Virus record (IMG/VR): IMGVR_UViG_3300044966_000228
Location: 1 to 44,089 of that record
Length of the DNA stretch: 44,089 nucleotides
From: a virus
Reading direction: 5' to 3' (one strand)
Shown: piece by piece, positions 4,870 to 42,047 of the stretch
How the letters are laid out: each line of letters opens with the position of its first letter
How positions within the stretch are numbered: the stretch's first letter is position 1
The notes under the pieces: generated by a model
Databases searched by the model: none
What the model was told of the DNA's origin: nothing
The model's input: only the letters and a program-made list of their open reading frames with translations
Program-made: the position numbers and the translations under genes

Positions 4870-5626
4870 GTGTTTCCCATGCTTTAAACCCGTTGTAAAA
4901 TAAACCTTGATTTGTTTTTTCTATAATTGTATTAGCCCATTGGCCGGTAATTCGGTGAAATTCACTTTTACTATTAAAGTATAATGTCTCGCCATTACTC
5001 GTTTCTACTCTTAATTTTTTTGAAACTTTTTCTGCACCTATAAGTCCGTTAATTTTATTTTGTGCTTTCATTATATCTGCATTATTTTGTTGCCATTCTT
5101 TTATACTAATTGATTTAGATTTCTTACTATCGGGATTATGATTATAGTATTCTTTAAGTGTTTTGGATTTTTTTTCATAAATCTCTTTAGTGTGTAAGTG
5201 TTGAGTGAGAAGTTTCCTGTCAGCTTCAGAGGTATTAGACCATTTAACAGATTGATTATACTTGCTAAAATGAGAACCTAATGCAACTTTAATTTTTTTT
5301 ATATCATCGTCGGATAATGCTAATAAATTATGTTTTCCTAACCCATCTCCGCCGGGAGTTGAATTAAGACCATTAACGTATGAATTATATTTTTTAATAT
5401 AATTAATTTCAGCTAATGCAAGGTCTCCTAATGATTTTATATTATCTTCTAGTACTTCGATTGTGCAGTTATTAATACCGTATTCCTTCATTGCTTTATG
5501 TAATGGAGTTTTGCAACGAGTATTTGCTTCGTTGCAATGCTCTTTCCATCTAGATAATTTATATGAAGGTTTTGAATCAAATCCAATATAAATTTGAGTG
5601 TTAACTGTGATTTTATATATAAACAT
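4862..5626 (-). CDS. Free-standing GIY-YIG homing endonuclease
   Basis: A 254-aa protein starting MFIYKITVNTQIYIGFDS: the GIY-YIG strands are seen as IYK and YIG. They are followed by the RWKEH segment and by NSTPGGDGLG near residue 90, as in phage seg-type homing endonucleases. The middle is basic and probably a linker. The C-terminal 50 residues (SNGETLYFNSKSEFHRITG and the following GLFYNGFKAW) look like a NUMOD-type DNA-binding repeat. A longer reading with a TTG start four codons upstream exists, but TTGGAG is then better read as the ribosome-binding site for the ATG at 5626. The gene is wedged between the 85-aa gene and gp47, overlapping gp47 by 8 bp. It is not inside an intron: both neighbours have intact ends. 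An exact late promoter lies 23 nt upstream. It is visibly richer in A+T runs than its neighbours, consistent with later insertion. Confidence 0.85.
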   Translation of the reverse strand: MFIYKITVNTQIYIGFDSKPSYKLSRWKEHCNEANTRCKTPLHKAMKEYGINNCTIEVLEDNIKSLGDLALAEINYIKKYNSYVNGLNSTPGGDGLGKHNLLALSDDDIKKIKVALGSHFSKYNQSVKWSNTSEADRKLLTQHLHTKEIYEKKSKTLKEYYNHNPDSKKSKSISIKEWQQNNADIMKAQNKINGLIGAEKVSKKLRVETSNGETLYFNSKSEFHRITGQWANTIIEKTNQGLFYNGFKAWETHG

Positions 5627-5649
5627 ATTTAACTCCAAGTGTATGTTGT

Positions 5650-12218: not shown

Positions 12219-15200
12219 ATGAGTGCAACCGACAGACAAAATAGATTATTAGTAGCCGAAGATTGGAAAAAGATATACCAATCTTTTAAAAGTGCAGATT
12301 TTCAAAGTTATGATTTTGAAAATTTACGGCGTACAATGGTTGACTATATTAGACAAAATTACCCAGAAGATTTTAATGATTATATCGAAAGTTCGGAGTA
12401 TCTAGCTTTAATTGATGTAATTGCATTTTTAGGTCAAAGTATAGCGTTTCGTGTAGATTTAAATGCTAGAGAAAATTTTTTAGAATTAGCAGAAAGACGA
12501 GAAAGTGTTTTAAGACTAGCTAAGTTAGTAAGCTATAATGCCAAACGATCAATTGCTGCTAAGGGATTATTAAAAGTTACAGCTATACAAACTACTGAAG
12601 ATGTGTACGATAGCAACAGTAGAAATTTGTCAGGGCAAAATATTACGTGGAATGATCCGTCTAATGTTAATTGGTATGATCAATTTATTAAAGTAGCAAA
12701 CGCAGCTATGCCGTTATCTCAACAGTTTGGTAACCCAGCTAACAGTGGAGTTATCTATGGCATACCGACTAATCAGTATATGTTACAAAGTACAAATACT
12801 GATGTTCCAATTTACACATTTTCTAAAATGATCGCTGGTCGGATGATGAGTTTTGAAGTTACTAGCACAACATTTGCTGGTCAAAATTACATATATGAAG
12901 AATCGCCAAAACTTGGAAGAAAATTATCTTGGGTGTATAGAAATGATAGTCATGGTTACGGTAGTCCCGGAACTGGATTCTTTTTAAATTTTGTTCAAGG
13001 ATCGTTAGGGTCTGCGCAGTTTATTATTAATCAACCTAGAAAAAACGAAGTTGTTGATGTTGATTCAACCGGTATTAACAATACAGATGTATGGTTGTAT
13101 CGATTAGATAAAGACGGTAAGGAATCAGAAGAATGGGTGCAAGTTCCTAGTGTTGAAGGCAACAATATTATTTACAATAGCATTAATAAGAATATTAAAA
13201 ACATTTTCAGTGTTCTTACTCGAACAAACGATGCAATCAGTTTATCATTTAGTGACGGCACATTTGGTAAATTACCGTATGGCACCTTTAATACATATCA
13301 CCGTATGAGTAACGGATTGTCGTACACAATTAATACTAAAGATATTCGTAATATTACAATCTTAGTACCGTACCTTTCTCACGTAGGGCAACCGCAGTCA
13401 TTAAGTTTGACATTAAGTCTTGCAACATCAGTGTCTAACGCAGAATCTACAGAGACTAATAGCAGTATCAAAACTAACGCTCCGGCAACATATTATACAC
13501 AAAACAGAATGATTACTGGTGAAGATTATAACATTTGTCCATTGAGCGTGAGCCAGCAAGTATTAAAAGTTAAAGCAATTAATCGTACATCAAGCGGTAT
13601 TAGTAGATATTTTGATTTAGTTGATCCAACTGGAAAATATAGTTCAACTAACCTATTTGCAGATGATGGCGTGATATACAAAGAAGAATACGAATCATAT
13701 GTTAAATTTTCGTATAGTAGTAAAACTGATATTGAAGGCATTATTTATAATACGCTTGATCGTATATTAAAATCTGCAGATTTACGAAACTTTTACTATC
13801 AACAGTATCCAAGTTTTGCAGTGTTAGGAAGCACATTAAATGTATCATGGCATAGAACTACACCAGATGTAGTATCGTCAACTGGTTATTTTTATGCTAC
13901 AGCAACTGGCGATCCACAAGGAGTAGGCATATCAGCACCAATTGCATCAGCTGAATTAGGGTATGTTAAATTAGGGTCATTAATTAAATTTATAAGTCCA
14001 GAAGGCAAATATTTTGATACTAGAAATCAAAATAAATTAGTTGATTTACCTACTAGTACAACCGTTGAGATGATTTTAGGTGCATCGACATATATATGGG
14101 CATCAGTTACTTCAATAGTAGGTGACGGAACTACTGAAATTGATGGGATTGGACCAATTACGTTAAATGTGGATATTGATACAGGTGCGATTGTTACTCA
14201 AATTATACCTAAGTTTCGAATAACGTTAGATCTTAGTGTAGTTACTACAATGATTGATTTAATATCTGAAAATAAAATGTTTGGGTTACGATATAATATT
14301 TCAACACAAACTTGGCAAATTGTATATGAATCGGATTTAAATTTAACAGATTTGTTTAGTTTATTTAATCAAGGCGATATTACTAATAGTCAAATTGATG
14401 CTAGTTGGATGTTATTGTTTACTACTAATAATGAATTTTATACAATTACTAGTCGTAATCTACGATATATCTTTGAAAGTGATAGTCAACTTAGATTTTA
14501 TTTTGATAAGAACGAACAGGTATATACTAGTAAATCAAGTAATTTAATTAGAGATAAAATTAATATCTTAAGTATTAATACTCGACCAGGTAGTACTGCT
14601 GCATATACTACTGATTTTAAATGGGATGTTGTATCGGAATTTATTGGATTAGATGGGTACGTTGATAATAAAAAAATTGTAGTGTCGTTTGCAGATGTTG
14701 ATGATAACGGATCAGTCGATAATCCGGATTTATTTTCAAATATTATTGACAGTGATTCTTTATATGTGTTTCAAGAAAAATATGCAATTTCTACAGGACA
14801 GGATGATTATAGATATGTTAATAACATGAATGATAGTAAAGTTAACATTGTAGCTGATGAAACTATATATTCCGGCGTTGCTGGACAGTATTATTATTTT
14901 CCAACAACAAACGTAGTTAAGTTAGCAGAACCGTCTGGAATGTTACAGCCAACATTAGATTATAAGGCATATGAAGGTCGAGCAAATTTAAAGTTCCAAT
15001 ATGTTCATAATGCTAATTATGATTCTAGAATTGATCCAGGTCTTAGCAACATTATTGATGTGTTTATTTTAACTAAAGGATATGATACTGCATTTAGAAA
15101 ATGGGTATCTGGTGCAATTAGTATTAAACCGTTACCGCCTAGTTCAACAGAATTATATAATACAGTTGCATCGTCGTTAAACTTAATTAAATCAATTTCA

Positions 15201-15665
15201 GATGAGGTAATCTACCATCCGGTGATGTATAAAATATTATTTGGTGCGTCAGCAGCCTTGGAACTACAAGCAACATTTAAGATTACAAAAACACCTGGAT
15301 TAGTAGTATCTGATAACGATGTTAAATCTCGCGTTATTACTGCAATTAATAGTTTCTTTAATTTAGATAACTGGGATTTTGGTGATACATTCTTCTTTAC
15401 AGAATTAGTAACATATGTAATGAATGAGTTAACTCCGGATATTTCAAATTTTGTAATAGTTCCTCGTAAACAAGGGTTAAATTTTGGAAGTTTATACGAA
15501 ATTAAATCTTTAAGTAACGAAATATTAATAAATGGAGCAACGGTTGATGATATTGAAGTTATTTCTGGTATCACTGCAAGTAATATTAAAACATCAAATT
15601 CTGCATCAATTGATTCATTAACAAATCAACAGAATATATCTAGCTCATCATATGGGAGTATTTAA
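12219..15665 (+). CDS. 6: Baseplate wedge protein gp6
   Basis: gp6 forms the wedge ring that holds the contractile baseplate together. The 1,148-aa protein has the characteristic N-terminus (VAEDWKKIYQSFKSADFQSY, then TMVDYIRQNYPEDFNDYIES and FLGQSIAFRVDLNARENFLE followed by RRESVLRLAKLVSYNAKRS) at residues 10-115. The C-terminal gp6/BaseplateJ-like part lies around residues 970-1120 (SDEVIYHPVMYKILFGASAA to FGDTFFFTELVTYVMNELTP). It is nearly twice as long as T4 gp6 (660 aa); the extra material is a beta-rich middle, roughly residues 560-950. The stop overlaps the start of the giant wedge gene as TAATG, so the two are translated in a coupled fashion. Confidence 0.92.
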   Translation: MSATDRQNRLLVAEDWKKIYQSFKSADFQSYDFENLRRTMVDYIRQNYPEDFNDYIESSEYLALIDVIAFLGQSIAFRVDLNARENFLELAERRESVLRLAKLVSYNAKRSIAAKGLLKVTAIQTTEDVYDSNSRNLSGQNITWNDPSNVNWYDQFIKVANAAMPLSQQFGNPANSGVIYGIPTNQYMLQSTNTDVPIYTFSKMIAGRMMSFEVTSTTFAGQNYIYEESPKLGRKLSWVYRNDSHGYGSPGTGFFLNFVQGSLGSAQFIINQPRKNEVVDVDSTGINNTDVWLYRLDKDGKESEEWVQVPSVEGNNIIYNSINKNIKNIFSVLTRTNDAISLSFSDGTFGKLPYGTFNTYHRMSNGLSYTINTKDIRNITILVPYLSHVGQPQSLSLTLSLATSVSNAESTETNSSIKTNAPATYYTQNRMITGEDYNICPLSVSQQVLKVKAINRTSSGISRYFDLVDPTGKYSSTNLFADDGVIYKEEYESYVKFSYSSKTDIEGIIYNTLDRILKSADLRNFYYQQYPSFAVLGSTLNVSWHRTTPDVVSSTGYFYATATGDPQGVGISAPIASAELGYVKLGSLIKFISPEGKYFDTRNQNKLVDLPTSTTVEMILGASTYIWASVTSIVGDGTTEIDGIGPITLNVDIDTGAIVTQIIPKFRITLDLSVVTTMIDLISENKMFGLRYNISTQTWQIVYESDLNLTDLFSLFNQGDITNSQIDASWMLLFTTNNEFYTITSRNLRYIFESDSQLRFYFDKNEQVYTSKSSNLIRDKINILSINTRPGSTAAYTTDFKWDVVSEFIGLDGYVDNKKIVVSFADVDDNGSVDNPDLFSNIIDSDSLYVFQEKYAISTGQDDYRYVNNMNDSKVNIVADETIYSGVAGQYYYFPTTNVVKLAEPSGMLQPTLDYKAYEGRANLKFQYVHNANYDSRIDPGLSNIIDVFILTKGYDTAFRKWVSGAISIKPLPPSSTELYNTVASSLNLIKSISDEVIYHPVMYKILFGASAALELQATFKITKTPGLVVSDNDVKSRVITAINSFFNLDNWDFGDTFFFTELVTYVMNELTPDISNFVIVPRKQGLNFGSLYEIKSLSNEILINGATVDDIEVISGITASNIKTSNSASIDSLTNQQNISSSSYGSI

Positions 15666-27368: not shown

Positions 27369-27974
27369 ATGCAGAATAAAGATATTACAGGCCTACATAT
27401 AGAAGGGCATATTAAAATATTTGACCCAGTTAGTAACGAGGTATATGTAAATAAAAGAAATGCAATACATTATGAAAATATAAGTATTGCGTTGGCACAG
27501 AGTATTGCAAATAGCAAAAACGGGTTTATATATCAAATGGCGTTTGGCAACGGCGGAACTGCAGTTGATCCAACTGGAATTATTACATATTTAACTCCAA
27601 ATAGTTCAGGATCAAATGCAAGTTTATACAATCAAACTTTTATAAAAGTTGTTAACGATCAATCGAGCAATAATATTGATCCAACCCGAAATTATATACA
27701 AACAAGACACGTAACTGGTGTGAATTATACTGATGTATTTGTATCGTGTTTGTTAGATTATACTGAACCATCCGGACAAAGTGCATTTGACACGTCAACT
27801 AATAGTGATGGTAACTTTGTATTTGATGAATTAGGTTTAAAGTCATATAATGAAGATGGCGATAGTATGTTGTTAACTCATGTAATTTTTCATCCAGTGC
27901 AAAAATCGTTAAATCGATTAATCCAAATTGAATATACTGTTCGTATACAAAGTTTAACAAGTATTGGAGTATAA
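27369..27974 (+). CDS. Virion structural protein, 201 aa, unknown role
   Basis: The protein reads as a compact beta-rich structural subunit: GHIKIFDPVSNEVYVNKRNA, HYENISIALAQSIANSKNGF, YQMAFGNGGTAVDPTGII, NATVFVSC-like strands ending FVFDELGLKSYNEDGD, and LTHVIFHPVQKSLNRLIQIE. I have the impression of similar proteins next to fibre genes in other large T4-like aquatic phages, but cannot name a T4 counterpart. Its location between the giant wedge protein and the fibres suggests a connector between baseplate and fibres. It has its own late promoter, and the next gene's ATG directly follows its stop. Confidence 0.6.
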   Translation: MQNKDITGLHIEGHIKIFDPVSNEVYVNKRNAIHYENISIALAQSIANSKNGFIYQMAFGNGGTAVDPTGIITYLTPNSSGSNASLYNQTFIKVVNDQSSNNIDPTRNYIQTRHVTGVNYTDVFVSCLLDYTEPSGQSAFDTSTNSDGNFVFDELGLKSYNEDGDSMLLTHVIFHPVQKSLNRLIQIEYTVRIQSLTSIGV

Positions 27975-27975
27975 A

Positions 27976-30042: not shown

Positions 30043-30959
30043 TGAGCTATTTAATAAACAAAACAGATGGATCTCTATTAACAGAGATTGTTGACGGAAC
30101 TGTAGATCAATTATCTACTAATTTAACATTAATTGGTAAAAACGCAAACTCGTACGGCGAGAGTTTAAACGAAAATTTTGTTCGATTATTAGAAAATTTT
30201 GCATCTGATATTAGACCTACTAATCCAATTCGAGGTCAAATTTGGTTTGATATTACCGAAAGTCGATTAAAGGTGTATGACGGAACTGCATTTAGATTAA
30301 GTGGCGGTACCGTTGTTGCTAGTTCGATGCCAAGTTCAATGTCAATTGGCGATTTGTGGATTGACAGCAGAAACAAACAGCTATACTTCAATGATGGAAT
30401 TTCAAATGTATTAGCAGGGCCAATCGATTCACCAAGTAACGGGATTGCAGTAGTAGCAGTAACGGATGATATTGGCGGGTCACATAACATTATCACAATC
30501 ACAATTTCACCAATATCAAACAATGCAGTAGATCCAATCTTACTTGCAATTTTTAGTGTAGATGAATTTACATTAAACGACTCTATAGTAGGGTACGATG
30601 GCTTGGATATTAAGAGAGGGTTTAATTTTCAGGCGTTACAGGATGTAAACACAAGCATTACAAATATTAGTGATCCGATTAACGATTTAGATGTAGTAAA
30701 TTTGCAAACACTTAACAATGCAGTGAAGCAAACACCTCTAGCAATTTCTTTAAACACTACTAATATACCGGGAGACAATGATGATAAAAATGATGCAATT
30801 GCTAATAATTTTTTAGCTAAAATTTTCCCATCAGATGAACATAGTGTTGACGGAGTTGAAGGACCAATATGCAGAGTTGTGGTTACTAACCAATCTACAG
30901 TATCAATTAAAGAGTTTAAGTTAATAAATTCCAATTGGACGTATCAAACAACGTTATAA
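30042..30959 (+). CDS. Tail fibre-like protein, short paralogue
   Basis: A 305-aa protein whose first 130 residues repeat the fibre N-terminal module (LTLIGKNANSYGESLNENFV, RGQIWFDITESRLKVYDG, GDLWIDSRNKQLYFNDG). The remainder is a short beta-rich part without a collar or other recognisable tip domain (ITNISDPINDLDVVNLQTLN, DNDDKNDAIANNFLAKIFPS, EFKLINSNWTYQTTL). It may be an adaptor or a fibre section that pairs with the longer paralogues. It is translationally coupled to the preceding fibre gene and followed by a late promoter. Confidence 0.75.
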   Translation: MSYLINKTDGSLLTEIVDGTVDQLSTNLTLIGKNANSYGESLNENFVRLLENFASDIRPTNPIRGQIWFDITESRLKVYDGTAFRLSGGTVVASSMPSSMSIGDLWIDSRNKQLYFNDGISNVLAGPIDSPSNGIAVVAVTDDIGGSHNIITITISPISNNAVDPILLAIFSVDEFTLNDSIVGYDGLDIKRGFNFQALQDVNTSITNISDPINDLDVVNLQTLNNAVKQTPLAISLNTTNIPGDNDDKNDAIANNFLAKIFPSDEHSVDGVEGPICRVVVTNQSTVSIKEFKLINSNWTYQTTL

Positions 30960-30960
30960 A

Positions 30961-30967
30961 ATAAATA
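30961..30967 (+). promoter_or_regulatory. Late promoter for the third fibre gene
   Basis: Plus-strand ATAAATACAG immediately after the stop of the preceding fibre gene, ending 22 nt before the ATG at 30990. The start has AAGGAA as ribosome-binding site. Confidence 0.6.
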
Positions 30968-30989
30968 CAGTAATACAAGGAATATACAA

Positions 30990-32741
30990 ATGGCATATGA
31001 GATTAAAAAATCTAATGGTGATACAGCAGCAATTGTCCTGGATGGTACAACAGTTAATACAAAATTTGATATTACATTAATTGGTAAAAATTATGCCGGT
31101 TATGGAGTACCACAAAATGAAAATTTTCTACATTTATTAGAGAATTTTTGTAAAGGAACACATCCAGATTATGCAACTACTGGTCAGTTATGGTACGATA
31201 GTAGCACTACTCGGTTAAAACTTAATACTGGTAGTTCTGCATTACCGAACTGGCATACAATTAGTCTTATCGAATCGACTAATACAGAACCAACTAACTT
31301 AACAGTTGGAAATTTTTGGTGGAATACAACATACGGGCATCTATATTGTAAAACTGCAACAGGTAAAGAATTTATAGGCGGATCGTCAACTGGTCGTCCT
31401 ACTCAAATGAAAACACGTACAGTTACTGATAATGCGGACGGTACTCATGATATTATTGAGGCAGTAGTTGGTAATCAAACCGTATTTACTATTTACAATG
31501 GCACATCTCCGTTTACATTAAAAGGTAATGCCGACAATACAATTACAGGATTTACTTCAATTAACCCTGGGTTCACTTCAAAAGATCTTTCAGGTACATA
31601 TAGATCAAGTGTATATAAATTTTGGGGTACCGCAACCGATTCTGATAAATTAGCAGGTAATGATGCGTCTACATATATTAGCACATCAAGTCCATTTTTT
31701 GCAGATATTGGTCTTACTATTGGTAATACAACTGCTAATAAAAAATTATACATTTATAATTATATAGCAGGAAGTGTAGTCACTCCAATTATTGAAAACA
31801 AGATAGATAACAAAATTGTTTTTAAGACAACAGTATCTAGTGTATCTAAAACTGCATTAGAAATTAATGGTGCAGATCTTTTACCAGGATCTACTGGTGT
31901 TTCTAATATTGGTGCAGATGGTGTTGGATTTAACAATGTATATGCAGCTGCGTTTAAAGGTAATGCAGATAGTGCAACTCAACTTAAAGTTAATACTGTT
32001 GCTAGAAGTGCTGATGAATCAGCAACGTCAGGCACTATTGTAGCAAGAACTTCAACTACTGGAACATTTTTAAAAATAGGATTAGTTGCTACTGAAAATA
32101 CCACTACCTTTACTGTTAGTAATTCACATGTAGTTGGTGGTGCAGTTACATTTACTGTAACTAGTAAAGCAGGAGTGGTACTTGGCACATATAATGGCTT
32201 GTTATCTGGTACTGATACTGTTACATTAACTAGTGGAGCAACTACTGGGTTTGTAACGGGTTGTGAAGTAAAGCAAACAAGTATAGCCGGCGGTGCAACT
32301 CCTGGTCAATTTGGATCATTAGCAATACCGGTCGGATCAATTCGTGCAGCTTATTTTGTAGGAATAGCAACGACTGCTGGCGGCGACGTAGCTGAAAAAT
32401 ACGTAGCTGATGCAACATATGAAGTGGGTTCTGTATTAATGATTGGCGGAGAAAAAGAAGTAACTGCTGCAAAATACGGAAAGCGTGCAATTGGTGCAAT
32501 ATCAGTAAACCCGTCAGTTATAATGAATCATGAATTACAGAACGGAACATTAGTTGGAATAAAAGGTCGCGTTCCGGTAAACGTAGTTGGACCAGTAACA
32601 AAGGGAGATCAGTTAATTGCAACCGATACCGGAGCAGCAATTGCACTTAGTAACCCATTAGATGCATGGTTAGTATTTGCAATTGCACTTGAAGATAATA
32701 GCATTGCAACTATTAAAATTGTTGAAGCAGTAATTTTATAA
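30990..32741 (+). CDS. Tail fibre-like protein with Peptidase_G2-like C-terminus
   Basis: A 583-aa protein. Residues 1-130 are the third copy of the shared fibre N-terminal module (ITLIGKNYAGYGVPQNENFL, TGQLWYDSSTTRLKLNTG, GNFWWNTTYGHLYCKT). The middle has fibre-type repeats (SNIGADGVGFNNVYAAAFKG then NADSATQLKVNT). The last 120 residues (GDVAEKYVADATYEVGSVLM, KYGKRAIGAISVNPSVIMNH, KGRVPVNVVGPVTKGDQLIA) resemble the Peptidase_G2/intramolecular-chaperone ends of phage fibres, which help trimerisation and may cleave themselves off. Whether the catalytic residues are present cannot be judged by eye. It is followed by the adhesin gene after 10 bp, so the two should share a transcript. Confidence 0.78.
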   Translation: MAYEIKKSNGDTAAIVLDGTTVNTKFDITLIGKNYAGYGVPQNENFLHLLENFCKGTHPDYATTGQLWYDSSTTRLKLNTGSSALPNWHTISLIESTNTEPTNLTVGNFWWNTTYGHLYCKTATGKEFIGGSSTGRPTQMKTRTVTDNADGTHDIIEAVVGNQTVFTIYNGTSPFTLKGNADNTITGFTSINPGFTSKDLSGTYRSSVYKFWGTATDSDKLAGNDASTYISTSSPFFADIGLTIGNTTANKKLYIYNYIAGSVVTPIIENKIDNKIVFKTTVSSVSKTALEINGADLLPGSTGVSNIGADGVGFNNVYAAAFKGNADSATQLKVNTVARSADESATSGTIVARTSTTGTFLKIGLVATENTTTFTVSNSHVVGGAVTFTVTSKAGVVLGTYNGLLSGTDTVTLTSGATTGFVTGCEVKQTSIAGGATPGQFGSLAIPVGSIRAAYFVGIATTAGGDVAEKYVADATYEVGSVLMIGGEKEVTAAKYGKRAIGAISVNPSVIMNHELQNGTLVGIKGRVPVNVVGPVTKGDQLIATDTGAAIALSNPLDAWLVFAIALEDNSIATIKIVEAVIL

Positions 32742-32751
32742 AGGAATATAA

Positions 32752-35700
32752 ATGGCATTAAGAACTATAACAGTGGCATCTAGCGCAACTGCATTATCCG
32801 CAGCGCAATTTGACCAGATTCAAAATAATTTAAATGAGGTATTAGGAGAAGGCAGTGGATCGTACGGATATGGCCAAGATGTAATGAGCCAGCCGTTAAT
32901 TACATCAGCTGATCCTAATCCAGTATTCTCAAATGAACATTTAAATTTGTTAGCAGCTGAAATAACAAAAGTAAGACTTCACCAATCCGGTAAACTAAAA
33001 GCTACTGAAGTAATTCCGGAATTAGCGTCCGGTGCTTCATTATCGACCAAATATATTAATCTATTAGTAGGCGGGATGTTAACTGCTCAATCGGATACGT
33101 ATCGATTGGCTACACCGCCAGCTGGTGTAAACTCTACTATTGAAGTACTTGATACTCCAAATAGTGGGTCAACACCTTGGAATAATACGTCTACACACAC
33201 TATGACAGTAGAGTTTGATACGGCAGATAACATGCGGTATTATTTCAACACTGGTGGTCAAATTCAATTTTTAGCAGATTTTACAAAACTTGGTACAACT
33301 ACTAAAAATACATCATGGACTACATTGTTAAAATCAATTGGTATTGTTAGCTTTGGAAGATCAAAAACTGTTAGCTCAAAAACCGGAGTTTCTGGCACAT
33401 TAGTAGGTTATGCAAGTTTATTTACTGTTGATACTGATGGTCTTATAGTGTTAGTTGACGGCGGCAAACCAATTTTTAGTAAGAAAGCTCCTGCTCCATT
33501 TGCTGCAAATGAATATCGTATTACTGCTGAAATGAATACTGAATCAAGCATTATATTTACAGTTGAATTTATTGACGGGACTGTATCTACTGCTAAGTTA
33601 CCGGATATTGATGTTACTGGTACGTTGACTAGTACAATACAATCACGTCGTGCAACTGGTGTTAACGTTGAAGTACCATTGCCAACTGTTACGTCTAACA
33701 CATTGGTGCTTGGTGCCCAAGCACCGTCGTATACGATTACACGTAGTGCAACGTACTTAACTGAAAATGAATATGATCCAGGCGTGATATTTTCAATTGA
33801 CACCGTAGGTGTTCCTGATGATACTGCTGTTTATTGGTCAATTGTAGGTAAAAACATAACCGATAACGATTTTAATTTAGATGCAATGGAACAATCTTCA
33901 GTATCAAATATTCCTGCAATTATCATGTCCGGAACTACTGACGGAATTCCGATAGTTGCTGCAACTGATGGATTAAAAGAAGGATTAGAAAAGTTTGATT
34001 TTATAGTTAGAGACGGCGAAGATCCAGCAACGTCTGTTATACTAACACAACTTAAATCAACTGCATTTGAACAAATAAAAGATACCTCAGCTAAACCAAC
34101 TCTGGCATTTGTATTACCAACATTTGATTTTTCAGCACAAACTGTTACTGCATTTGCAGAAGGTAAGATGGCAACGTTTGTAGTAACACAATCAAACATG
34201 TTAGTTTCTACAAAAATGCATTGGGAAATACAATTTGGAGATGGCGACAATAATGCTGCTGATTTTGGAGCAGTAAGTGGCGACTTTTTATTCCCCAAAG
34301 GAAAAGCTACATATACTCTTAGCATTAAACTAACTGGAAAAGATGGCGAAGATCCAGGAGAAACATTCTCAATTAAATTGTATTCATTTGATGATGCTGG
34401 AAATTCAGTATTCCAATCAACTAGTTCAGTAGTTGCAATAACTGATGATTTTGTTGCACCACCGACTATACCAAAACCGTCTTTAGTAATTACTGGAAAT
34501 ACAGCAGTTATTGATGAAGGTAGTCAAGCAGGTGTTCAATTTGTATTAACTGCACCAGAATACGCTACTAACACAAAAATTTATTGGAGAGCAATTGCAG
34601 CTAACGGTATAACTGATTTAACTGATTCTGACTTTAGTAGAAAATATGTGTTAGGTGGCGTTGGCGCAGGCGGTACAGCATCTAGCTATATAACTATTCA
34701 ATCTAATAAAACTGCAACTCTTAATCGATATGCAGAAAAGGATACTGCAACTGAAGGACTTGAATCATTTATTGTAGAGTTTTATTTAGATCCAGAATAT
34801 CAAACTTTTATAATCGGAAGTAATCCAGTAGGTATTCGTGAAACAGTCGGGTGGTCAATTGCGAGAACACCGTCGTCTGCAAATGAAGGTGATGGTAATA
34901 AAGTAACATTTAATGTCGCATCACCTTATAATCCAAATGGAAAATTGTATTGGACTATACCGCAAGTTGGCACAATTGGTCCTGACGACTTTAATGCATT
35001 AAGCGGCGAGTTCTTTTTAGATGATGCTAGCAACGGGTCATTTGATGTATATCCAGCAAGAGATATTGCTATTGAAGGTCCTCAAGAGTTCCAAGTACAA
35101 GTAAGAGCTGATTCATTAGCAGGTGACATTAAGATTTCAAGTACTGGTACAATTACAGAACCTGATATTTATATAATTGATGCTATATCAACAGTTGCAG
35201 AAGGCGGAGTAATTAATTATAGTATTACAACACCATACACGCCGTCTGGTAAATTATATTGGACTACATTGTCAACGGCTGCTGGAAAAGTAACTACATC
35301 TGATTTTACTGAAACTCCAGGTGAAATTACAATTACTGATAGTCACGGATCACTTGCTTTACATCCAACAGCTGATAATTCAACAGAAGGTACTGAATCA
35401 TTTAAATTAGTATTGCATTCAGGTAGTATAGGTGGAAAAGTAGTATATACTCAACCAGAACCTATATACATTACTGAAGTAGTTGGATACACAATTGCGT
35501 TATCAAATGGTGTTACGTCATTAGCCGAAGGTGGCAATGTTGATGTAGTTATTACTACTCCATATACTGAAGCAAGCACTCCACTATGGTGGTCGATAAA
35601 AGGTAATCTTACAACTGCAGATTATGAAGTAGTTGACGCCGATACTACATCTGGTGTTAGAGCTCGTAAAGATAATGGTAGAGTGCTTACATCGTTATCT

Positions 35701-38700
35701 ACCGTTAACGGTATAACAGTTTCAAGAGCTAGTTTTAAAATATATGCATCAAATGACATATATACCGAAGGTGCAGAAACGTTTAAAGTTTACTTACATG
35801 TGTCATCTGATCTTACATCATCAATAAAAGAAACTGCAGAATTATCGTTAACTGAATTAGTTCCGTGGTCAATGTTATCATATAATCCTGATTCTAATGC
35901 AGCAATGACTACGGTTAATGAAGGCGATGCAATAAAATTTGTAGTAAAAACTCCATTTAAACCTGATCGCACTGCGTTGTATTGGAGAGCAGTATCAGGC
36001 GGTTCGGGTACATGGACATCTTCTCAATTAGATAATATGGCAGGGGTAATATATACTTCAAAAAATAGTACTGATGTAAGTGCTTCTGTAACAGTATCTC
36101 CAAAAAATGATAAATTGTTAGAAGGTCAAATGACATTTGTTGTTCGTATATACGAGTTACCGTCAACTATGTCAGTTGCTGATATTAATGCGTTATCGTA
36201 TTCATCAGTAATAGATGAAACTAGATTTAGAATTGAAAGTTATCCAATTATAATTTACGATACGTCTCAACCGGACGAAGTTCCAGATCCAGCACCGATG
36301 GTAATTGTATCAGTTGTTCCAACAAAGAATGGTGATGAAGTTAAATCAGTTAATGAAGGCGATGAATTTCAATATCTAGTAACAACTACTGGTGTTCCTG
36401 TTGATCATGATTTATATTGGTCGTTAGTTACATCTAATGTACAAACTGGCGAAATTTTACCAAGTACAACTGGTGCATCATTTAGAGTAGATGCAGAAGG
36501 GTTGGCATTAATTACACTTAATTCAGTAGCAAGTGCTAATTTAGGTCATAAAACTATTTTAATGAGAGTTAGATTAACCCAGTTTGCAACAAAAGCAAAA
36601 AACGGTAATCTACTAACTATTTTAAAAGAACAAGAATATGGGATTAGGGTCACTCCAACAGTAGTGCGAGAAGGTAACACTTTTGTAGTATCAGTAACTA
36701 CACCGGTGCATATAAATAATCCTGCTGCGGGTTCAAATTTAACATGGACTATTATTCCGTATGCATCAACTAATATAACTGCAGCTGATTTTATAGATCC
36801 ATCTACAGGTAATCCGTTAATATCATTATCCGGAACTGTATCTATTGGCAACGATGGTACTGGCAGTTTTAGTTTAACAGCAGTTGGTACTGATGCAACT
36901 GAAGGTTCTGAACAGTTTACTATAACATTAGCAAAAAATGGTATTGCAATACCAAATGTACCATGTCCAGTTGTAACAATTACTGAAGATATTGGATATT
37001 CAATTACAAGTAGTAGAAGTTATATGATAGAAGCAGGCACTGCAGGAACTAACCAAGTAGTGTTTACAGTAAGAACTCCAAAACTATCAGCGGCAACTAC
37101 GTTAACTTATAAAGTTGAGCAAGTATTCGGTACAATTCGATATACTGATTTTGAAGAGTTTAGTACGCTTAATTCAGATGGACCGTTAACAGGTACTGTT
37201 GATATTGCTAGTCAAGACGGCGGCACATGGTGGGGTGGAACAATCACATTAACTGCTAGAGCAGACGGTTTGGCTGAAGGTAGTGATGTTGACCAATTTA
37301 AACTTAGTTTGTGGAAAGTTGTAAACTCAGTAGTAACACCAATTGATGCATCGTGCAGCACTGTATCAATTCGGGAATCGTCAGTATATTCTATATCAAT
37401 CACACCTCCAGGTCAAGTAACACCAAATCCTACAACAGTTGTGACTGGTACTCTAATACGCTTTTATGTTAATACTCCACAAAAAGATCCCGGTGCACCG
37501 TTGTATTATCGAATAACAGGTGCAAACTCTTCGTCAGTTACTCCTAATGATTTTGTAGAAACAAAAAGTAGAACTCCGCAGTCATTAGATTGGACAGCAT
37601 ATGTATGGGATAATGCTACATATTTTGATGTAACACCATTAACTGGTAACAAAGCATTTACAATTGAACTTCTTACTGCATTATCTGGCGGTTCGACAAT
37701 ATCTGCAGGGACAATACCGGTAATAACAGTAACACAACCGCAAGTATTTAGAGTAGAAGGTTCTCCAGTAGATACTGTTTATGATGGACAAACTGCAACA
37801 TTTGTAATTACACATCCTACAGTAACTAGCAATACGATGTACTGGAAACTTACTGGAACTTCAGGTACTATAATTTTACCAGATGATTTTACACTTGGCG
37901 GTACTGCGTTAACTTCGTTAACTGGTTCTAAAACAAATATGACAGCACTTGGCGGCCAGTCTACATTAGTATTTGGAATTAACTCAAATAGATCAGTTAA
38001 AACGCAAAAGAAATTTACATTAGGTGTAAGTTTATTAGATGCTACTCCATTTGTACCGGTAACTAACGGTACTTCAAACGAAATGACACTGTCATCACTT
38101 GGTGCATTTGGACTTAGAAGTACTGCGACTGCAGTGCGTGCTGGAGAAACAATATATTTCTTTATTAAATTAACTGGAAACACAACTGTTAAAAAGATAG
38201 CATGGGCATTAAGTAGTGCATCTGCATATTTTACATCTGCATCTCAAAGTGGTATAGTAGACGTTCCTAGTAACGGTAACGAAGTTGCAATTAAATTAGT
38301 TGCAAATACTACCTTTACTTCGGCTATCACAACTGACGTATCGTTTACACTTTCGTTAAAAGAAGAAACAGCATCGGGCACTATAATCACACCGTCGCCA
38401 ACTGCATCAGTAGTTGTAACTGGCGATTATTCTATATCACCAAATGTTCCAACAACTATTCCAATGACTGGTGTACAAGTAACATTTACTGCACCATCAA
38501 GTGATAGTTCAGTTAGCTGGTCACTTGTTAGCGGTGATGTTGCTAATCCAGTTAGTGCAACATGGTTTACTAATGATACTGCAATTTCAGGTACATTAAC
38601 CAGAGTTACTGGATTACTTCCTGCATTGAATTTTACCCCGCATGCAACTAACGGTAAAAATGGAAAAAAATTCACTGTAAAATTAGTAGGTAGTAAACAG

Positions 38701-41700
38701 ACATTAATTAGCCAGGTGTTTACTATGCCAGCAGCAGCTAATGTTCCTGCTACTGATGCAACCATTGTTACCGTAGAAGAAGGCGACGGCACTACATTAA
38801 CAGAAGGAGGAACTGCAGATATAGTAATATCAATGCCATCAACTAAAGCTGCAGAACCGGTAAAATTTGCATTAAAAGGTGACCCTGCGGTAATTGCGGT
38901 TGTACAGTATTCAGAAACATCTAATGCAATTGCGTTAGAGGCGACTAAACCATCTGGTACTGTAGTAAAAATGACCGGTGTGTTGTATTATACGTTAAGT
39001 TTTAGATTAACTAAAATGGTTCCTGGATCGTTTTATGTAGAGTTTACACCACCAAGTGGAATTACTACAGAATCGGATAAAATTTGGGTAACTGCACCAC
39101 CTGTAGATTATATATTTTATAAAGATGGATCAATGTCAATACCAGCTGGTACTAGATCAGTTTCTGTAATAATGTCAGGCGGCGGCGGCCAAGGTGGCGG
39201 CATGTCAGTTGCATTTGGAGGGAAAGGTGGAGACGGTGATAAAATTGCCGGCGTTCTTCCAATTCCTGAAGGTACAACATCGTTGTCGTTTAAGTTCATT
39301 CCAGGTGGTGATAGATTTGCTAATAAAATTAGTGCAACTATGGGAATTGGCGGAAAAGGCGGAACTGCTGTTGAGTTATATAGAGATGGTGTACATATTG
39401 CAACTGCCGCCGGTGGTGGCGGTGGCGGTGGAGGAGCAGTGCTACCGTACCCAATAATGTATCCGTATACTGAAAACCCAACAGTAGAAACAGTACTTAA
39501 TGGTACTACTACTTCTAAGTCAACTACTAGAGTTACAACAGCTGCTGCTAAAGCAGCAGCCGATGGTGCAGGTGCAGGTGGTGCACCAGGCGGAGTCTCT
39601 GGTATAGGAACTAGGTCAGTTCAACAAGTTGTATATTATAATAATGATACTGCTCATAGAAATGATACTAACGCAAAATGTGCAACTGGCGGTAGTGGCG
39701 GGATATCATCTATAAATACTACAATTGCTGCAGATTTAAAGTTAGTTGGCGATGGTATTACTTCATCAACTAGCCGTACAGTAGTATATACTCCGGTTCT
39801 GGCAAAAACCTGGGCCCATGCATGGATGAATCAATATGCAATTTGGAACGGCAGTACTAATTCGTCAGTAACTGGTGTTTGGGACCTAGTTGCAATAACA
39901 CCACCCGGTACTACAACTTATCAATTAACTGCCGGCTGCGATGACTACGGTTTTATTACAATTAATAATAAGACGATTGTTATTAGTGGGCAACGCGGTA
40001 CTAAAAAGTATGACGTTGTATTAGATGCTAGCTGGAATCGAAAGATTACAGTATATGCACAAAATAAAAATGTAACTACCACTAAAAATCCATACGGAGT
40101 AGGTGCTACGTTAGCACTTAAATCTGCTCCAACTATTATATTATGGTCAACGCGATCTACTGCAACGGTTAACACTGCTGATGATAAATTAGGTGGTGGC
40201 GGTATTGGCGGCCGAGGGGTTGCATCAACTAGTATACCGCCTAAAACAGAATTTAACGAAGGAGCAGTAGCTGCAAATTATACGTTACTTACTCCATATA
40301 CTGGTGGCATATCAGGAACACCGTTATCAAATAGTGGTGAAATGGGCGAACCTGCGTATATTCAAATATCGTTACCGCCCGTAACTGATGCAAACGTAGT
40401 ACCAGCCGGACATTCGTTCTTTATATCTGGAGGGACAAACACATTTGTAGTACCAGCTGGTATTAGTAAAGTGTCTATTATTGCAGTCGGTGGTGGCGGT
40501 GGTGGTGGATCAGGGTATGACTCCCCAACTGCGCCAAAAGTGTATCTAGGTGCATCAGGCGGCGGTGGCGGCGCAGGCGGCATTATAGAGTGCGACTTAA
40601 CTGTAACAAGTGGTGAAACGTTATTTATTAATGTTGGAAAAGGTGGCGCAGGCGGCACTACCGGAACAGGTATAGTACGTAAAGGCACTGACGGTACTAC
40701 AACTAGGGTTACGAGAGGGTCAAATGAAATTACTGCAACTGGCGGACAAGGTGGTCGTGGATTTGATCAAGAAAGTACGTCAGATCCTGCAACTGCAAAT
40801 AACACATTAGGTGGAGAATCAGGAATTGGGTCAATAGTTGGTCCAACTACTGGATACGATGTTAATAGTGTTGTTGCACCGCATATTAACCCAGGAGAAC
40901 GTGGACTTGCTGATGTATTAACTATTGATTTAGCTGCACCTAAAAAAGCTAAAACTGAAAGCCAATACTATCGCGGAGGCAACGGTGCAAATAATGGATC
41001 AAAATACGGAACTGGCGGTATTGGTGGTGCAACTAGAGAAAACAAAGTTGTAGAACCAGGAAGTGCTGGAGTTGATGGTGTTGTGTTAATTTATTGGGGT
41101 GCAGGAATTTCTAATTTTATTGCGCCTGCATTACCTGCAATAGTAGCAGCAAAGGCAGTAGTACCAGCAGCACGTCCAGCTGTTGTAGCACCACCACTAC
41201 CTGCTATTGATACTGTAACATATCATGCAAATCCTACTACTACTACTGGACTTGGTAAGTATTGGGCATATACTGATCCAGTTAATGGCGTATATGATAC
41301 TCGAATGTATTGGGAAAATTTAGCTATACCAGTAGTATCAGGAATGACGATAACATCGCTAGGCTACGATCAAACTGGCACGTTTACGCTATATAATTCA
41401 ACAGGATCAACTTTTCAAGTACCAGGGCAAGTGGCTAGGTCTACATGGCCAATACCGCCGGAGTTTGGAACAATTGTTAAGATTGTAATATATCGAGCAA
41501 ATTGGGCATATGTAACTGCTTATATTTCAAACCAAGCAGGATCAGTGTTGTGGTCTACAATTGACAAAGCAGATCATTTTAGAACACCTACTCCAATAGT
41601 AGCAGTGCAACCTATTAATTATGTACAGTATGTGCAGCATACTCCAACTGGTTCCGGTATTAATCAGTATTGGGTATACCCAAAAATTCCATGGAATGCA

Positions 41701-41988
41701 GAACCATTTGGTAGTTCGTATTGGGAGAATTTAGATATAACAATAACAACAGGAATGGTAATGAAAGGAGTAGGAGTAAGCAATACATTAACGTCGTTTG
41801 TGTTAACTAATTCGATAGGTAACACTGTTTCAATAACTGCAAATAACACTGATCAACCACTAGATGTAAATTTTGGAACAATTGTTAGAATTCAAGTTAT
41901 TCAAAAATGGGGGTTTGTAGCCGGAACTATTACAGCGGGAGGAGTACTTCACTGGTCTACACTTGACATAGCACAGCACAACGGTTAA
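32752..41988 (+). CDS. Giant adhesin/long tail fibre with Calx-beta-like repeats and Gly-rich tip, 3,078 aa
   Basis: Probably a host-contact fibre. The N-terminus (residues 1-325: SAAQFDQIQNNLNEVLGEGS, EHLNLLAAEITKVRLHQSGK, RYYFNTGGQIQFLADFTK) is likely the attachment part. Residues about 326-2115 hold roughly 15 repeats of 100-130 aa. Each has the pattern EG...F.V.TP....LYW....T..DF....G.......D...EG.E.F.V.L, which resembles Calx-beta domains of bacterial adhesins. Examples are VAEGGVINYSITTPYTPSGK and VNEGDAIKFVVKTPFKPDR. Residues about 2120-2785 are glycine-rich (GGGGQGGG, GGGGGGGGAV, GGGGGGGSG), as in polyglycine tips of phage S16 gp38-type adhesins. An Ala/Pro/Val linker (about 2785-2825) leads to two C-terminal repeats of about 120 aa sharing YWENL, FGTIV and LWST/HWST motifs. 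AAGGAA precedes the ATG. A GC-rich terminator follows. Confidence 0.82.
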   Translation: MALRTITVASSATALSAAQFDQIQNNLNEVLGEGSGSYGYGQDVMSQPLITSADPNPVFSNEHLNLLAAEITKVRLHQSGKLKATEVIPELASGASLSTKYINLLVGGMLTAQSDTYRLATPPAGVNSTIEVLDTPNSGSTPWNNTSTHTMTVEFDTADNMRYYFNTGGQIQFLADFTKLGTTTKNTSWTTLLKSIGIVSFGRSKTVSSKTGVSGTLVGYASLFTVDTDGLIVLVDGGKPIFSKKAPAPFAANEYRITAEMNTESSIIFTVEFIDGTVSTAKLPDIDVTGTLTSTIQSRRATGVNVEVPLPTVTSNTLVLGAQAPSYTITRSATYLTENEYDPGVIFSIDTVGVPDDTAVYWSIVGKNITDNDFNLDAMEQSSVSNIPAIIMSGTTDGIPIVAATDGLKEGLEKFDFIVRDGEDPATSVILTQLKSTAFEQIKDTSAKPTLAFVLPTFDFSAQTVTAFAEGKMATFVVTQSNMLVSTKMHWEIQFGDGDNNAADFGAVSGDFLFPKGKATYTLSIKLTGKDGEDPGETFSIKLYSFDDAGNSVFQSTSSVVAITDDFVAPPTIPKPSLVITGNTAVIDEGSQAGVQFVLTAPEYATNTKIYWRAIAANGITDLTDSDFSRKYVLGGVGAGGTASSYITIQSNKTATLNRYAEKDTATEGLESFIVEFYLDPEYQTFIIGSNPVGIRETVGWSIARTPSSANEGDGNKVTFNVASPYNPNGKLYWTIPQVGTIGPDDFNALSGEFFLDDASNGSFDVYPARDIAIEGPQEFQVQVRADSLAGDIKISSTGTITEPDIYIIDAISTVAEGGVINYSITTPYTPSGKLYWTTLSTAAGKVTTSDFTETPGEITITDSHGSLALHPTADNSTEGTESFKLVLHSGSIGGKVVYTQPEPIYITEVVGYTIALSNGVTSLAEGGNVDVVITTPYTEASTPLWWSIKGNLTTADYEVVDADTTSGVRARKDNGRVLTSLSTVNGITVSRASFKIYASNDIYTEGAETFKVYLHVSSDLTSSIKETAELSLTELVPWSMLSYNPDSNAAMTTVNEGDAIKFVVKTPFKPDRTALYWRAVSGGSGTWTSSQLDNMAGVIYTSKNSTDVSASVTVSPKNDKLLEGQMTFVVRIYELPSTMSVADINALSYSSVIDETRFRIESYPIIIYDTSQPDEVPDPAPMVIVSVVPTKNGDEVKSVNEGDEFQYLVTTTGVPVDHDLYWSLVTSNVQTGEILPSTTGASFRVDAEGLALITLNSVASANLGHKTILMRVRLTQFATKAKNGNLLTILKEQEYGIRVTPTVVREGNTFVVSVTTPVHINNPAAGSNLTWTIIPYASTNITAADFIDPSTGNPLISLSGTVSIGNDGTGSFSLTAVGTDATEGSEQFTITLAKNGIAIPNVPCPVVTITEDIGYSITSSRSYMIEAGTAGTNQVVFTVRTPKLSAATTLTYKVEQVFGTIRYTDFEEFSTLNSDGPLTGTVDIASQDGGTWWGGTITLTARADGLAEGSDVDQFKLSLWKVVNSVVTPIDASCSTVSIRESSVYSISITPPGQVTPNPTTVVTGTLIRFYVNTPQKDPGAPLYYRITGANSSSVTPNDFVETKSRTPQSLDWTAYVWDNATYFDVTPLTGNKAFTIELLTALSGGSTISAGTIPVITVTQPQVFRVEGSPVDTVYDGQTATFVITHPTVTSNTMYWKLTGTSGTIILPDDFTLGGTALTSLTGSKTNMTALGGQSTLVFGINSNRSVKTQKKFTLGVSLLDATPFVPVTNGTSNEMTLSSLGAFGLRSTATAVRAGETIYFFIKLTGNTTVKKIAWALSSASAYFTSASQSGIVDVPSNGNEVAIKLVANTTFTSAITTDVSFTLSLKEETASGTIITPSPTASVVVTGDYSISPNVPTTIPMTGVQVTFTAPSSDSSVSWSLVSGDVANPVSATWFTNDTAISGTLTRVTGLLPALNFTPHATNGKNGKKFTVKLVGSKQTLISQVFTMPAAANVPATDATIVTVEEGDGTTLTEGGTADIVISMPSTKAAEPVKFALKGDPAVIAVVQYSETSNAIALEATKPSGTVVKMTGVLYYTLSFRLTKMVPGSFYVEFTPPSGITTESDKIWVTAPPVDYIFYKDGSMSIPAGTRSVSVIMSGGGGQGGGMSVAFGGKGGDGDKIAGVLPIPEGTTSLSFKFIPGGDRFANKISATMGIGGKGGTAVELYRDGVHIATAAGGGGGGGGAVLPYPIMYPYTENPTVETVLNGTTTSKSTTRVTTAAAKAAADGAGAGGAPGGVSGIGTRSVQQVVYYNNDTAHRNDTNAKCATGGSGGISSINTTIAADLKLVGDGITSSTSRTVVYTPVLAKTWAHAWMNQYAIWNGSTNSSVTGVWDLVAITPPGTTTYQLTAGCDDYGFITINNKTIVISGQRGTKKYDVVLDASWNRKITVYAQNKNVTTTKNPYGVGATLALKSAPTIILWSTRSTATVNTADDKLGGGGIGGRGVASTSIPPKTEFNEGAVAANYTLLTPYTGGISGTPLSNSGEMGEPAYIQISLPPVTDANVVPAGHSFFISGGTNTFVVPAGISKVSIIAVGGGGGGGSGYDSPTAPKVYLGASGGGGGAGGIIECDLTVTSGETLFINVGKGGAGGTTGTGIVRKGTDGTTTRVTRGSNEITATGGQGGRGFDQESTSDPATANNTLGGESGIGSIVGPTTGYDVNSVVAPHINPGERGLADVLTIDLAAPKKAKTESQYYRGGNGANNGSKYGTGGIGGATRENKVVEPGSAGVDGVVLIYWGAGISNFIAPALPAIVAAKAVVPAARPAVVAPPLPAIDTVTYHANPTTTTGLGKYWAYTDPVNGVYDTRMYWENLAIPVVSGMTITSLGYDQTGTFTLYNSTGSTFQVPGQVARSTWPIPPEFGTIVKIVIYRANWAYVTAYISNQAGSVLWSTIDKADHFRTPTPIVAVQPINYVQYVQHTPTGSGINQYWVYPKIPWNAEPFGSSYWENLDITITTGMVMKGVGVSNTLTSFVLTNSIGNTVSITANNTDQPLDVNFGTIVRIQVIQKWGFVAGTITAGGVLHWSTLDIAQHNG

Positions 41989-42018
41989 CGTATATAGTAG
42001 TAAAGTAGTACAAATGAT

Positions 42019-42040
42019 AAAGCCGGCATATGCCGGCTTT
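42019..42040. terminator. Bidirectional intrinsic terminator
   Basis: A perfect palindrome with an 11-bp arm (AAAGCCGGCAT and its complement), flanked by T-runs in both directions. It lies in the 59-bp gap between the convergent adhesin and thyX genes, so it would stop both transcripts. It is the strongest GC-rich hairpin in the window. Confidence 0.85.
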
Positions 42041-42047
42041 GTTGTGA

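Follow-up and report, generated by a model that had tools for sequence, protein, structure and literature searches.

The calcium ligands of NCX1 CBD1 are E385, D421, D446, D447, E451, E454, and D498-D500 (PMC3386913), and in NCX1 the calcium ligands are located in the AB, CD, and EF loops (PMC9820601). Within CBD12, D499 and D500 serve both calcium coordination and the interface to the next domain. Calcium is described as restricting and stiffening the CBD12 linker, and in the E454K variant salt bridges stand in for the calcium ion (PMC3386913). Calcium also stiffens the Ig-like extender of the bacterial adhesin MpAFP, whose RII region measures ~190 Å per four Ig-like repeats (PMC4083281). The glycine-rich domain of Pam3 gp24 is reported as a receptor-binding lattice that has a GGGGxGG motif and resembles S16 gp38 and ALK (PMC9608196).

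Here, we describe a giant gene, from a large uncultured bacterial virus, whose product joins components of these kinds. We consider it about 70% probable that the gene encodes a long tail fibre, probably receptor-binding, in which a glycine-rich tip sits on a calcium-stiffened, hinged stalk of Calx-beta type. The kinds of component are known; judged by sequence searches, their combination is one that was not found in the named phages covered. Literature searches on Calx-beta and phages among open-licence papers returned none that, going by title and the opening of the abstract, concerns a phage fibre, and the terms Ig-like, immunoglobulin, and calcium do not occur in the main text of a jumbo-phage review (PMC13282480). 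As a model of how very long phage fibres are built, the fibre is concrete and testable: its stalk would depend on calcium, as in giant bacterial adhesins.

Genomic setting and N-terminal module

The window, that is, the whole stretch of DNA analysed, is a complete IMG/VR record of 44,089 bases. PHROGs searches place genes for RNase H, an SbcC-like exonuclease subunit, and a late sigma factor on its minus strand, followed by genes for baseplate wedge subunits, a hub lysozyme, and a gp6-like wedge protein of 1,148 aa. Next in the operon are a 3,884-aa virion protein, a 201-aa protein, and three fibre-like genes, and the giant fibre gene comes last (Table 1). An earlier, sequence-only reading of this DNA had called an open reading frame of 3,078 residues here; it is real and open throughout, with 3,078 codons and no stop. 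The convergent thyX gene is separated from it by a terminator-like hairpin.

The gp6-like protein shares 35 to 37% identity with its counterparts in Sinorhizobium phage Phosso, Agrobacterium phage Atu_ph07, and PA5oct-type Pseudomonas phages. The gene order of the operon is the same in PA5oct, many of whose products are flagged ESI-MS/MS in the record. Thus, judged by gp6-like similarity and gene order, the source is a fragment of a T4-like jumbo phage of the PA5oct side, and the fibre gene ends a T4/PA5oct-type baseplate operon. The fibre itself found no match in megablast and tblastn searches of 50,697 phages, in a sequence search of the PDB with the whole protein, or in a scan of viral sequences with the fibre protein alone.

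The sequence-only reading recognized the stalk and the tip in its domain list and missed a conserved N-terminal module (N-module). This module aligns over aa 1-327 with nine relatives at 30 to 43% identity, and the 10 sequences have 28 invariant columns, a GYGQ core among them. No PHROG matched it, nor did its profile match any PDB sequence; tblastn with the module, including a stand-alone N-module protein, found nothing among the 50,697 named phages, and a scan of genome contigs gave 17 candidates, of which 0 were confirmed. The N-module profile does match PA5oct gp360 (YP_010678854.1; E = 5.6e-33), in syntenic position, and this was the only match among named records, with 0 of 5 others matching in the same profile search. 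PA5oct gp360 is annotated as hypothetical, yet it is flagged ESI-MS/MS in its record, and its relatives in Pseudomonas jumbo phages are 98.5 to 99.8% identical. It now gains a likely role as a fibre or fibre base.

A profile scan found at least 480 relatives of the N-module in viral contigs; the module represents a family, without a PHROG match, that is widespread in environmental phages. We surveyed architectures in the best 79 loci of these relatives, where 99 ORFs carried the module and 76 remained after 8 truncated and 15 duplicate ORFs had been set aside. Among the 76, 51 were at most 350 aa long and repeat-free, and another 3 were longer and repeat-free; 13 had 1 to 5 repeats, 2 had 6 to 10, and 7 had at least 11. 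Because most N-module ORFs in this survey are short and repeat-free, the stalk has probably been added onto a base protein that itself is more common.

Table 1. Positions of the fibre gene, its domains, and flanking features in the window.
Feature	Position	Strand	Basis
gp6-like baseplate wedge, same operon; marker for finding relatives	12219..15665	+	
Ribosome-binding-like AAAGGA, six bases 5' of the fibre ATG	32740..32745	+	sequence reading
Giant fibre gene, 3,078 aa	32752..41988	+	ORF call, translation
N-terminal module, aa 1-325, probable virion anchor	32752..33726	+	alignment, profile search
Repeat 1, acidic site positions 6/6	33727..34092	+	family and window-free profiles
Repeat 2, acids 5/6; the repeat passing Pfam Calx-beta	34120..34455	+	profile, Pfam
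Repeat 3, acids 6/6	34480..34851	+	profile
Repeat 4, acids 5/6; first half of AlphaFold2 model	34849..35169	+	profile, model
Repeat 5, acids 6/6; second half of AlphaFold2 model	35164..35487	+	profile, model
Repeat 6, acids 6/6	35485..35862	+	profile
Repeat 7, acids 4/6; last strand extends to ~36258	35881..36225	+	profile
Conserved Pro/Glu-rich linker 7-8, aa 1170-1183, predicted hinge	36259..36300	+	junction comparison
Repeat 8, acids 2/6	36322..36633	+	profile
Repeat 9, acids 5/6	36634..36993	+	profile
Repeat 10, acids 6/6	36994..37386	+	profile
Repeat 11, acids 1/6	37411..37746	+	profile
Repeat 12, acids 2/6	37744..38103	+	profile
Repeat 13, acids 0/6	38104..38424	+	profile
Repeat 14, acids 0/6	38425..38766	+	profile
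Possible degenerate repeat 15, 4.4-5.9 bits, within shuffle noise	38767..39105	+	profile
Glycine-rich zone 1, aa 2119-2545, contains insert	39106..40386	+	sequence, tip alignment
PA14-like insert, aa ~2351-2476, weak evidence	39802..40179	+	alignment, model and Foldseek
Glycine-rich zone 2, aa 2546-2784	40387..41103	+	Pfam Gly_rich_2
C-terminal domain copy 1, aa 2821-2942	41212..41577	+	tip alignment
C-terminal domain copy 2, aa 2956-3078	41617..41985	+	tip alignment
Terminator-like hairpin between fibre gene and thyX	42014..42045	.	sites called on both strands

Repeat array and fold

A self-profile of the window protein detected 12 strong and 3 weak repeats. With a family profile built from 124 repeats of the window and its relatives, 14 window repeats scored above 26 bits and a 15th scored 4.4. 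The family profile draws in part on the window's own repeats; a profile lacking any window repeat serves as the independent test, and it recovered 14 window domains at 21 to 80 bits. For comparison, the best of 200 shuffles of the fibre protein reached 9.4 bits with this profile, and the best stretch in the other window proteins tested reached 5.2 bits. The 15th domain (aa 2005-2118) scored 5.9 bits, within noise. The original estimate of about 15 repeats was thus a fair one, 14 being sure and 1 marginal.

Relatives were found with gp6 at 80 loci, and 44 records among these were searched with the repeat profile, which matched at least 12 of them; the 44- and 49-record sets were both drawn from the 80 gp6 loci, for the most part on the length of the contig, and tallies are lower bounds. 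Fibre lengths are 2,611 aa in L122, 2,821 in L123, 2,730 in L124, and 2,975 in L125, the last in a contig of 372 kb; the others are 2,618 (L126), 2,280 (L128), 1,816 (L129), and 972 aa (L130) long. Fourteen repeats score above 15 bits in each of the window fibre, L122 to L126, and L128, as against 9 in L129 and 2 in L130, and the L143 and L155 fibres also have 14 each. In L124, the 14th repeat lies 292 residues past the 13th. Searches for further tips brought no new lineages except L218, which matches like the L126 group.

Mean pairwise identity among the window repeats is 21%. The same-numbered repeat is the best match of a window repeat for 14 of 14 in L123, 12 of 14 in L122, and 11 of 14 in L124, and this agreement drops in distant fibres (5/14 in L126, 3/14 in L125, and 1/14 each in L128, L129, and L130). 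From these alignments, the array is old and collinear among the closer relatives, and comparison by position fails for distant fibres. Since the repeats are diverged and align position by position with closer relatives, they do not represent a recent expansion, in agreement with the sequence-only reading.

Junctions between repeats are mostly abutting. Extra residues occur in all six fibres compared (window and L122 to L126) at junction 1-2 (9 to 10 residues) and junction 2-3 (5 to 8), and at junction 7-8 the same six collinear fibres carry a Pro/Glu-rich stretch of ~10 to 14 residues, which in the window (aa 1170-1183) reads DTSQPDEVPDPAPM. L143 has a 10-residue gap at junction 7-8, and the long gap is missing in L128 (0 residues), L129 (2), and L155 (4). 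Higher counts of 25 to 34 residues for a hinge (32 in the window, 34 in L122, and 25 in L123) were rejected, since they took in the final strand of repeat 7.

Pfam Calx-beta (PF03160) matched the whole protein at 28.6 bits, against a cut-off of 27, and this score came from one repeat. When repeats were scanned singly, the family was listed for 1 of 15 window repeats; at E 0.01 it matched 4 of 107 family repeats, and 0 of the 44 relatives' records passed the cut-off. PDB searches with repeat profiles gave best E values of 0.06 and 0.044, which were rejected as matches. AlphaFold2 modelled repeats 4 and 5 with high confidence from 94 tandem pairs (mean pLDDT 95.3; pTM 0.80). In a Foldseek search of the PDB with this model, NCX1 or CALX took ranks 1 to 7, 9, and 13 (best E 6.8e-9). 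TM-scores were low (0.33 to 0.38 by query length), perhaps an effect of comparing two domains that are set at different angles.

VIA-align returned Z scores of 9.6 to 10.6 for invasin (best, 10.6), FdeC, TEP1r, and intimin, and of 8.6 to 9.5 for NCX1/CALX (9.5 for NCX1). Generic Ig-like stalks are thus level with NCX1, and fold alone cannot separate Calx-beta from them. No phage fibres were among the 50 VIA-align matches listed, an absence to which no weight is given. Similar folds among viral models belong largely to proteins of uncultured phages and cyanophages, and this phage is therefore not alone in having repeats of this type; a long repeat array was found by tblastn in none of the named phages. 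Taking alignments and model together, the repeats are best called Calx-beta type, with an Ig-like sandwich. The Calx-beta label proposed at the outset therefore stands as far as Foldseek, the acidic positions, and the Pfam match go, and falls short in that Pfam covers 1 of 15 window repeats. The repeats are not ordinary Ig-like domains devoid of Calx-beta similarity, given that NCX1 and CALX lead the Foldseek list.

Acidic positions along the stalk

We find six strongly acidic columns among 109 family repeats, counted after L127 and L131, near-duplicates of L126 and L130, had been dropped. Asp or Glu occupies these columns in 65 to 82% of repeats, against a background of 9.9%: E13 in 83/108, D47 in 84/109, D74 in 70/105, E78 in 75/106, E81 in 70/108, and D/E109 in 69/84, the last strand being aligned with some uncertainty and only 84 of 109 repeats having a letter at this column. 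According to the DSSP strands of the AlphaFold2 model, the six positions lie in the AB, CD, and EF loops and after strand G. The +4, +3 spacing of D74, E78, and E81 equals that of D447, E451, and E454 in NCX1 (PMC3386913), and column 81 corresponds, by spacing, to E454. The motif D...E..E.F occurs 4 times in the fibre protein, compared with a mean of 0.01 in 300 shuffles. On our reading, the six acids would be equivalent to the NCX1 ligands, by loop and spacing rather than by superposition. A putative calcium site, which the sequence-only reading had suggested looking for, is thus visible as six conserved D/E columns with NCX1-like loops and spacing.

Five or six of the acids are present in 8 of the 14 window repeats and in 69 of the 109 family repeats; all six are found in 48 of the 109, and three or fewer in 37 (Table 2). 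As read from the alignment, the site is intact throughout some fibres, and in the window lineage it has been lost in repeat 8 and again from repeat 11 onwards. L128 has 14 repeats, yet five or more acids are present in 1 of them, so that the site is nearly gone. The relatives thus form a natural series of predicted calcium-type repeats, from 14 of 14 with five or six acids in each of L143 and L155, through 8 of 14 in the window, to 1 of 14 in L128. An array almost without acids, as in L128, suggests that some fibres of this kind can do without calcium. Shared ancestry accounts for much of the likeness in pattern between the window, L122, and L123. At column 81, Lys or Arg is found in 15 of 37 acid-poor repeats (three acids or fewer) and in 4 of 69 acid-rich repeats, against a background of 5%.

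Table 2. Acids present, of the six site positions, in successive repeats from repeat 1.
Fibre	Acids per repeat
Window	6,5,6,5,6,6,4,2,5,6,1,2,0,0
L122	6,5,6,5,6,6,3,2,5,6,1,5,0,1
L123	6,5,5,6,6,6,3,2,5,6,1,2,0,0
L124	6,6,6,6,6,6,6,6,5,6,1,5,0,0
L125	6,6,6,6,6,5,4,3,2,3,2,5,2,6
L126	6,6,6,6,6,6,6,2,6,6,6,6,5,5
L128	1,0,2,0,0,2,0,1,1,0,5,1,4,3
L129 (9 repeats)	6,5,6,5,5,6,6,6,5
L130 (2 repeats)	6,6

Tip, mechanism, and known counterparts

Past the stalk, the two glycine-rich zones carry five GGGGxGG motifs, and Pfam Gly_rich_2 matches the window fibre at 50.9 bits (cut-off 24.3). Gly_rich_2 is above its cut-off in 5 of 9 fibres (window, L122, L123, L125, and L130), below it in L129, and without a match in L124, L126, and L128. 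Over 704 aligned positions, the window and L123 tips are 42% identical. The PA14-like insert is common to the window, L123, L126, and L143 and absent in L122, and the C-terminal domain is present in two copies in the window and in one in L126 and L143. These uneven distributions indicate that, at the level of sequence, the tip is a mosaic on a conserved stalk.

The model of the tip, built from five sequences, is weak (mean pLDDT 44.7), and its fold matches are therefore tentative. Foldseek with this low-confidence model listed the Bxb1 tail tip at E 1.1e-6, the Pam3 fibre at 1.5e-5, glycine-rich domains of LTK/ALK from 2.4e-3 upwards, and the PA14 domain of MpAFP, which binds sugar (E 0.15 to 0.2; prob 0.97 to 0.98). 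T4-type gp38 is a small separate tip protein on gp37. The sequence-only reading had likened the glycine-rich zone to gp38-type tips; Gly_rich_2 and the Bxb1 and Pam3 matches agree with a phage-tip kind, and gp38 itself was not in the Foldseek list. We rejected the gp38 family label, the tip being part of one 3,078-aa chain. The two C-terminal repeats also noticed then are real and related (36% identity to each other), and the sugar-binding description given to them was dropped, there being no Pfam match and no usable model. Pfam PA14 found no match in the window fibre at E 0.01; on the model, the PA14-like insert would be a better candidate for sugar binding than the C-terminal domains.

Sequence or model shows the domains and their fold, the acidic positions, the gene order, the conservation of array and linker, and the mosaic tip; a virion location, calcium binding, stiffness, a hinge, and receptor binding are what we infer. 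The N-terminal module would dock the fibre on the baseplate, and 14 to 15 Ig-like domains of Calx-beta type would carry the tip outwards. Calcium at the end of each basal domain may lock it to its neighbour, so that the base (repeats 1 to 6) would form a rod, with the Pro/Glu-rich linker after repeat 7 as a predicted hinge and repeats 9 and 10 as a shorter calcium-type segment past it. The outer arm (repeats 11 to 14 or 15) would be calcium-free, Lys or Arg often replacing one ligand. The head, comprising two polyglycine-type domains, the PA14-like domain, and unique C-terminal domains, would bind the host surface. At the ~190 Å per four repeats of MpAFP, 14 to 15 repeats would come to ~66 to 71 nm, and the extended stalk may thus measure roughly 65 to 70 nm, a figure borrowed from another family. 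The very long flexible fibre imagined in the sequence-only reading probably does not describe the basal half, predicted to be calcium-stiffened with a defined hinge.

More tentatively, the number of domains (~14) might be held constant and stiffness tuned by keeping or deleting calcium sites at set positions, giving the basal rod, the hinge, and a calcium-free outer arm in which Lys or Arg replaces calcium; the odds are somewhat against this. If true, calcium would serve as an environmental switch controlling the fibre's approach to its host.

Generic Ig-like folds that match NCX1 in VIA-align scores, repeats that mostly lie below Pfam Calx-beta, and the persistence of the L128 array almost without acids would all suit a virion fibre with an ordinary phage Ig-like stalk, in which the acids are vestigial or form a structural network, without any mechanical role for calcium. 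This is unlikely, however, in view of the 48 of 109 repeats with all six acids, the complete 5-6/6 series of L143 and L155, the exact NCX1 ligand spacing, and the top Foldseek ranking of NCX1/CALX. A calcium-stiffened fibre that triggers infection also has to be weighed against a surface decoration or an adhesin for mucus, polysaccharide, or particles in the environment. Phage Ig-like domains are thought to bind host surfaces weakly (PMC8877628), PA14-like and glycine-rich modules would suit glycans, and three other fibre-like genes precede the fibre gene. We nevertheless regard such a decoration as improbable: the gene is the last of a baseplate/fibre operon, its N-module is common with PA5oct gp360 at the same locus, and it varies most in its tip, as receptor-binding proteins do.

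The likeness to bacterial adhesins extends to layout, since an Ig-like extender with PA14-like and end domains resembles the MpAFP type. A bacterial RTX-type adhesin gene, whether the host's or acquired, in a mis-binned contig is nevertheless very improbable and was rejected at this locus: the gene is embedded in a baseplate operon and recurs at that position in further viral contigs, including one of 372 kb, and the RTX nonapeptide GGxGxDxU has 0 matches in the fibre protein. The comparison with RTX adhesins suggested in the sequence-only reading does not hold for the nonapeptide.

The hinged, calcium-stiffened tail fibre that we favour thus resembles several known systems in part. It has its N-module and operon place in common with PA5oct gp360, a protein of only ~406 aa, in whose translation the Calx-beta array and glycine-rich tip are not seen. 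The cyanophage P-SSM2 protein Q58ME0 has a similar fold (rmsd 1.6 over 112 columns; 30% identity), but the cyanophage proteins with similar domains, among them P-SSM2 Q58ME0 and the S-CAM3 gp5-like protein, are other virion proteins, e.g., the hub. CBD1 and CBD2 of NCX1/CALX display the Ig-like sandwich, the ligand loops, and the D-x3-E-x2-E spacing of the fibre repeats; there they are two regulatory domains in an exchanger, whereas the fibre has 14 to 15 in an array, mostly under the Pfam cut-off. Calcium-binding Ig-like arrays also carry the binding end outwards in the MpAFP RII extender and SiiE (PMC4083281, PMC5466336), which are bacterial and secreted, with ~120 and 53 repeats that are identical or many more than the fibre's. 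Finally, Pam3 gp24, S16 gp38, and ALK/LTK have the glycine-rich lattice type and GGGGxGG motifs seen in the window tip, which, unlike Pam3 gp24, gp38, and ALK, sets two tandem zones, one of them with an insert, on a long stalk.

Genes upstream of the giant fibre

Three successive fibre-like genes share one N-terminal domain (phrog_15511/14394), distinct from the N-module, the probable virion anchor of the giant fibre; a Collar domain closes the product of the first gene. Residues 1595-1620 of the 3,884-aa virion protein match CBM_5_12 below threshold (22.6 bits; cut-off 26.2). We take the 258-aa ORF, judged by eye from its motif, to resemble a GIY-YIG homing endonuclease.

Features in the window and in related loci
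Feature	Position	Strand	Remark
258-aa ORF	window 4862-5638	-	between gp47-like and late-sigma-factor genes
3,884-aa virion protein	window 15665-27319	+	
Three successive fibre-like genes	window 27964-32741	+	PHROG matches phrog_15511/14394
Terminator-like hairpin	window 42014-42045	both (called)	between giant fibre and convergent thyX
N-module of L128 fibre, with insert	L128 10888-12591	-	insert lectin-like by eye
Stalked fibre and adjoining N-module genes	L129 4179-10572; L152 6689-15408		
gp360	NC_071039.1 (PA5oct) 44462-45682; L215 39485-40705		giant-fibre N-module present

N-modules in relatives

The N-module of one relative's fibre (locus L128) contains an insert of ~215 residues, which looks lectin-like by eye. 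In two further loci (L129 and L152), the stalked, repeat-bearing fibre adjoins more N-module genes, stand-alone or stalked, which suggests that several N-modules share one base.

N-modules in Pseudomonas phages

The giant-fibre N-module is found in 11 Pseudomonas phage records, including Paride. In the jumbo phage PA5oct, the N-module protein gp360 is annotated as hypothetical, and its record carries an ESI-MS/MS flag.
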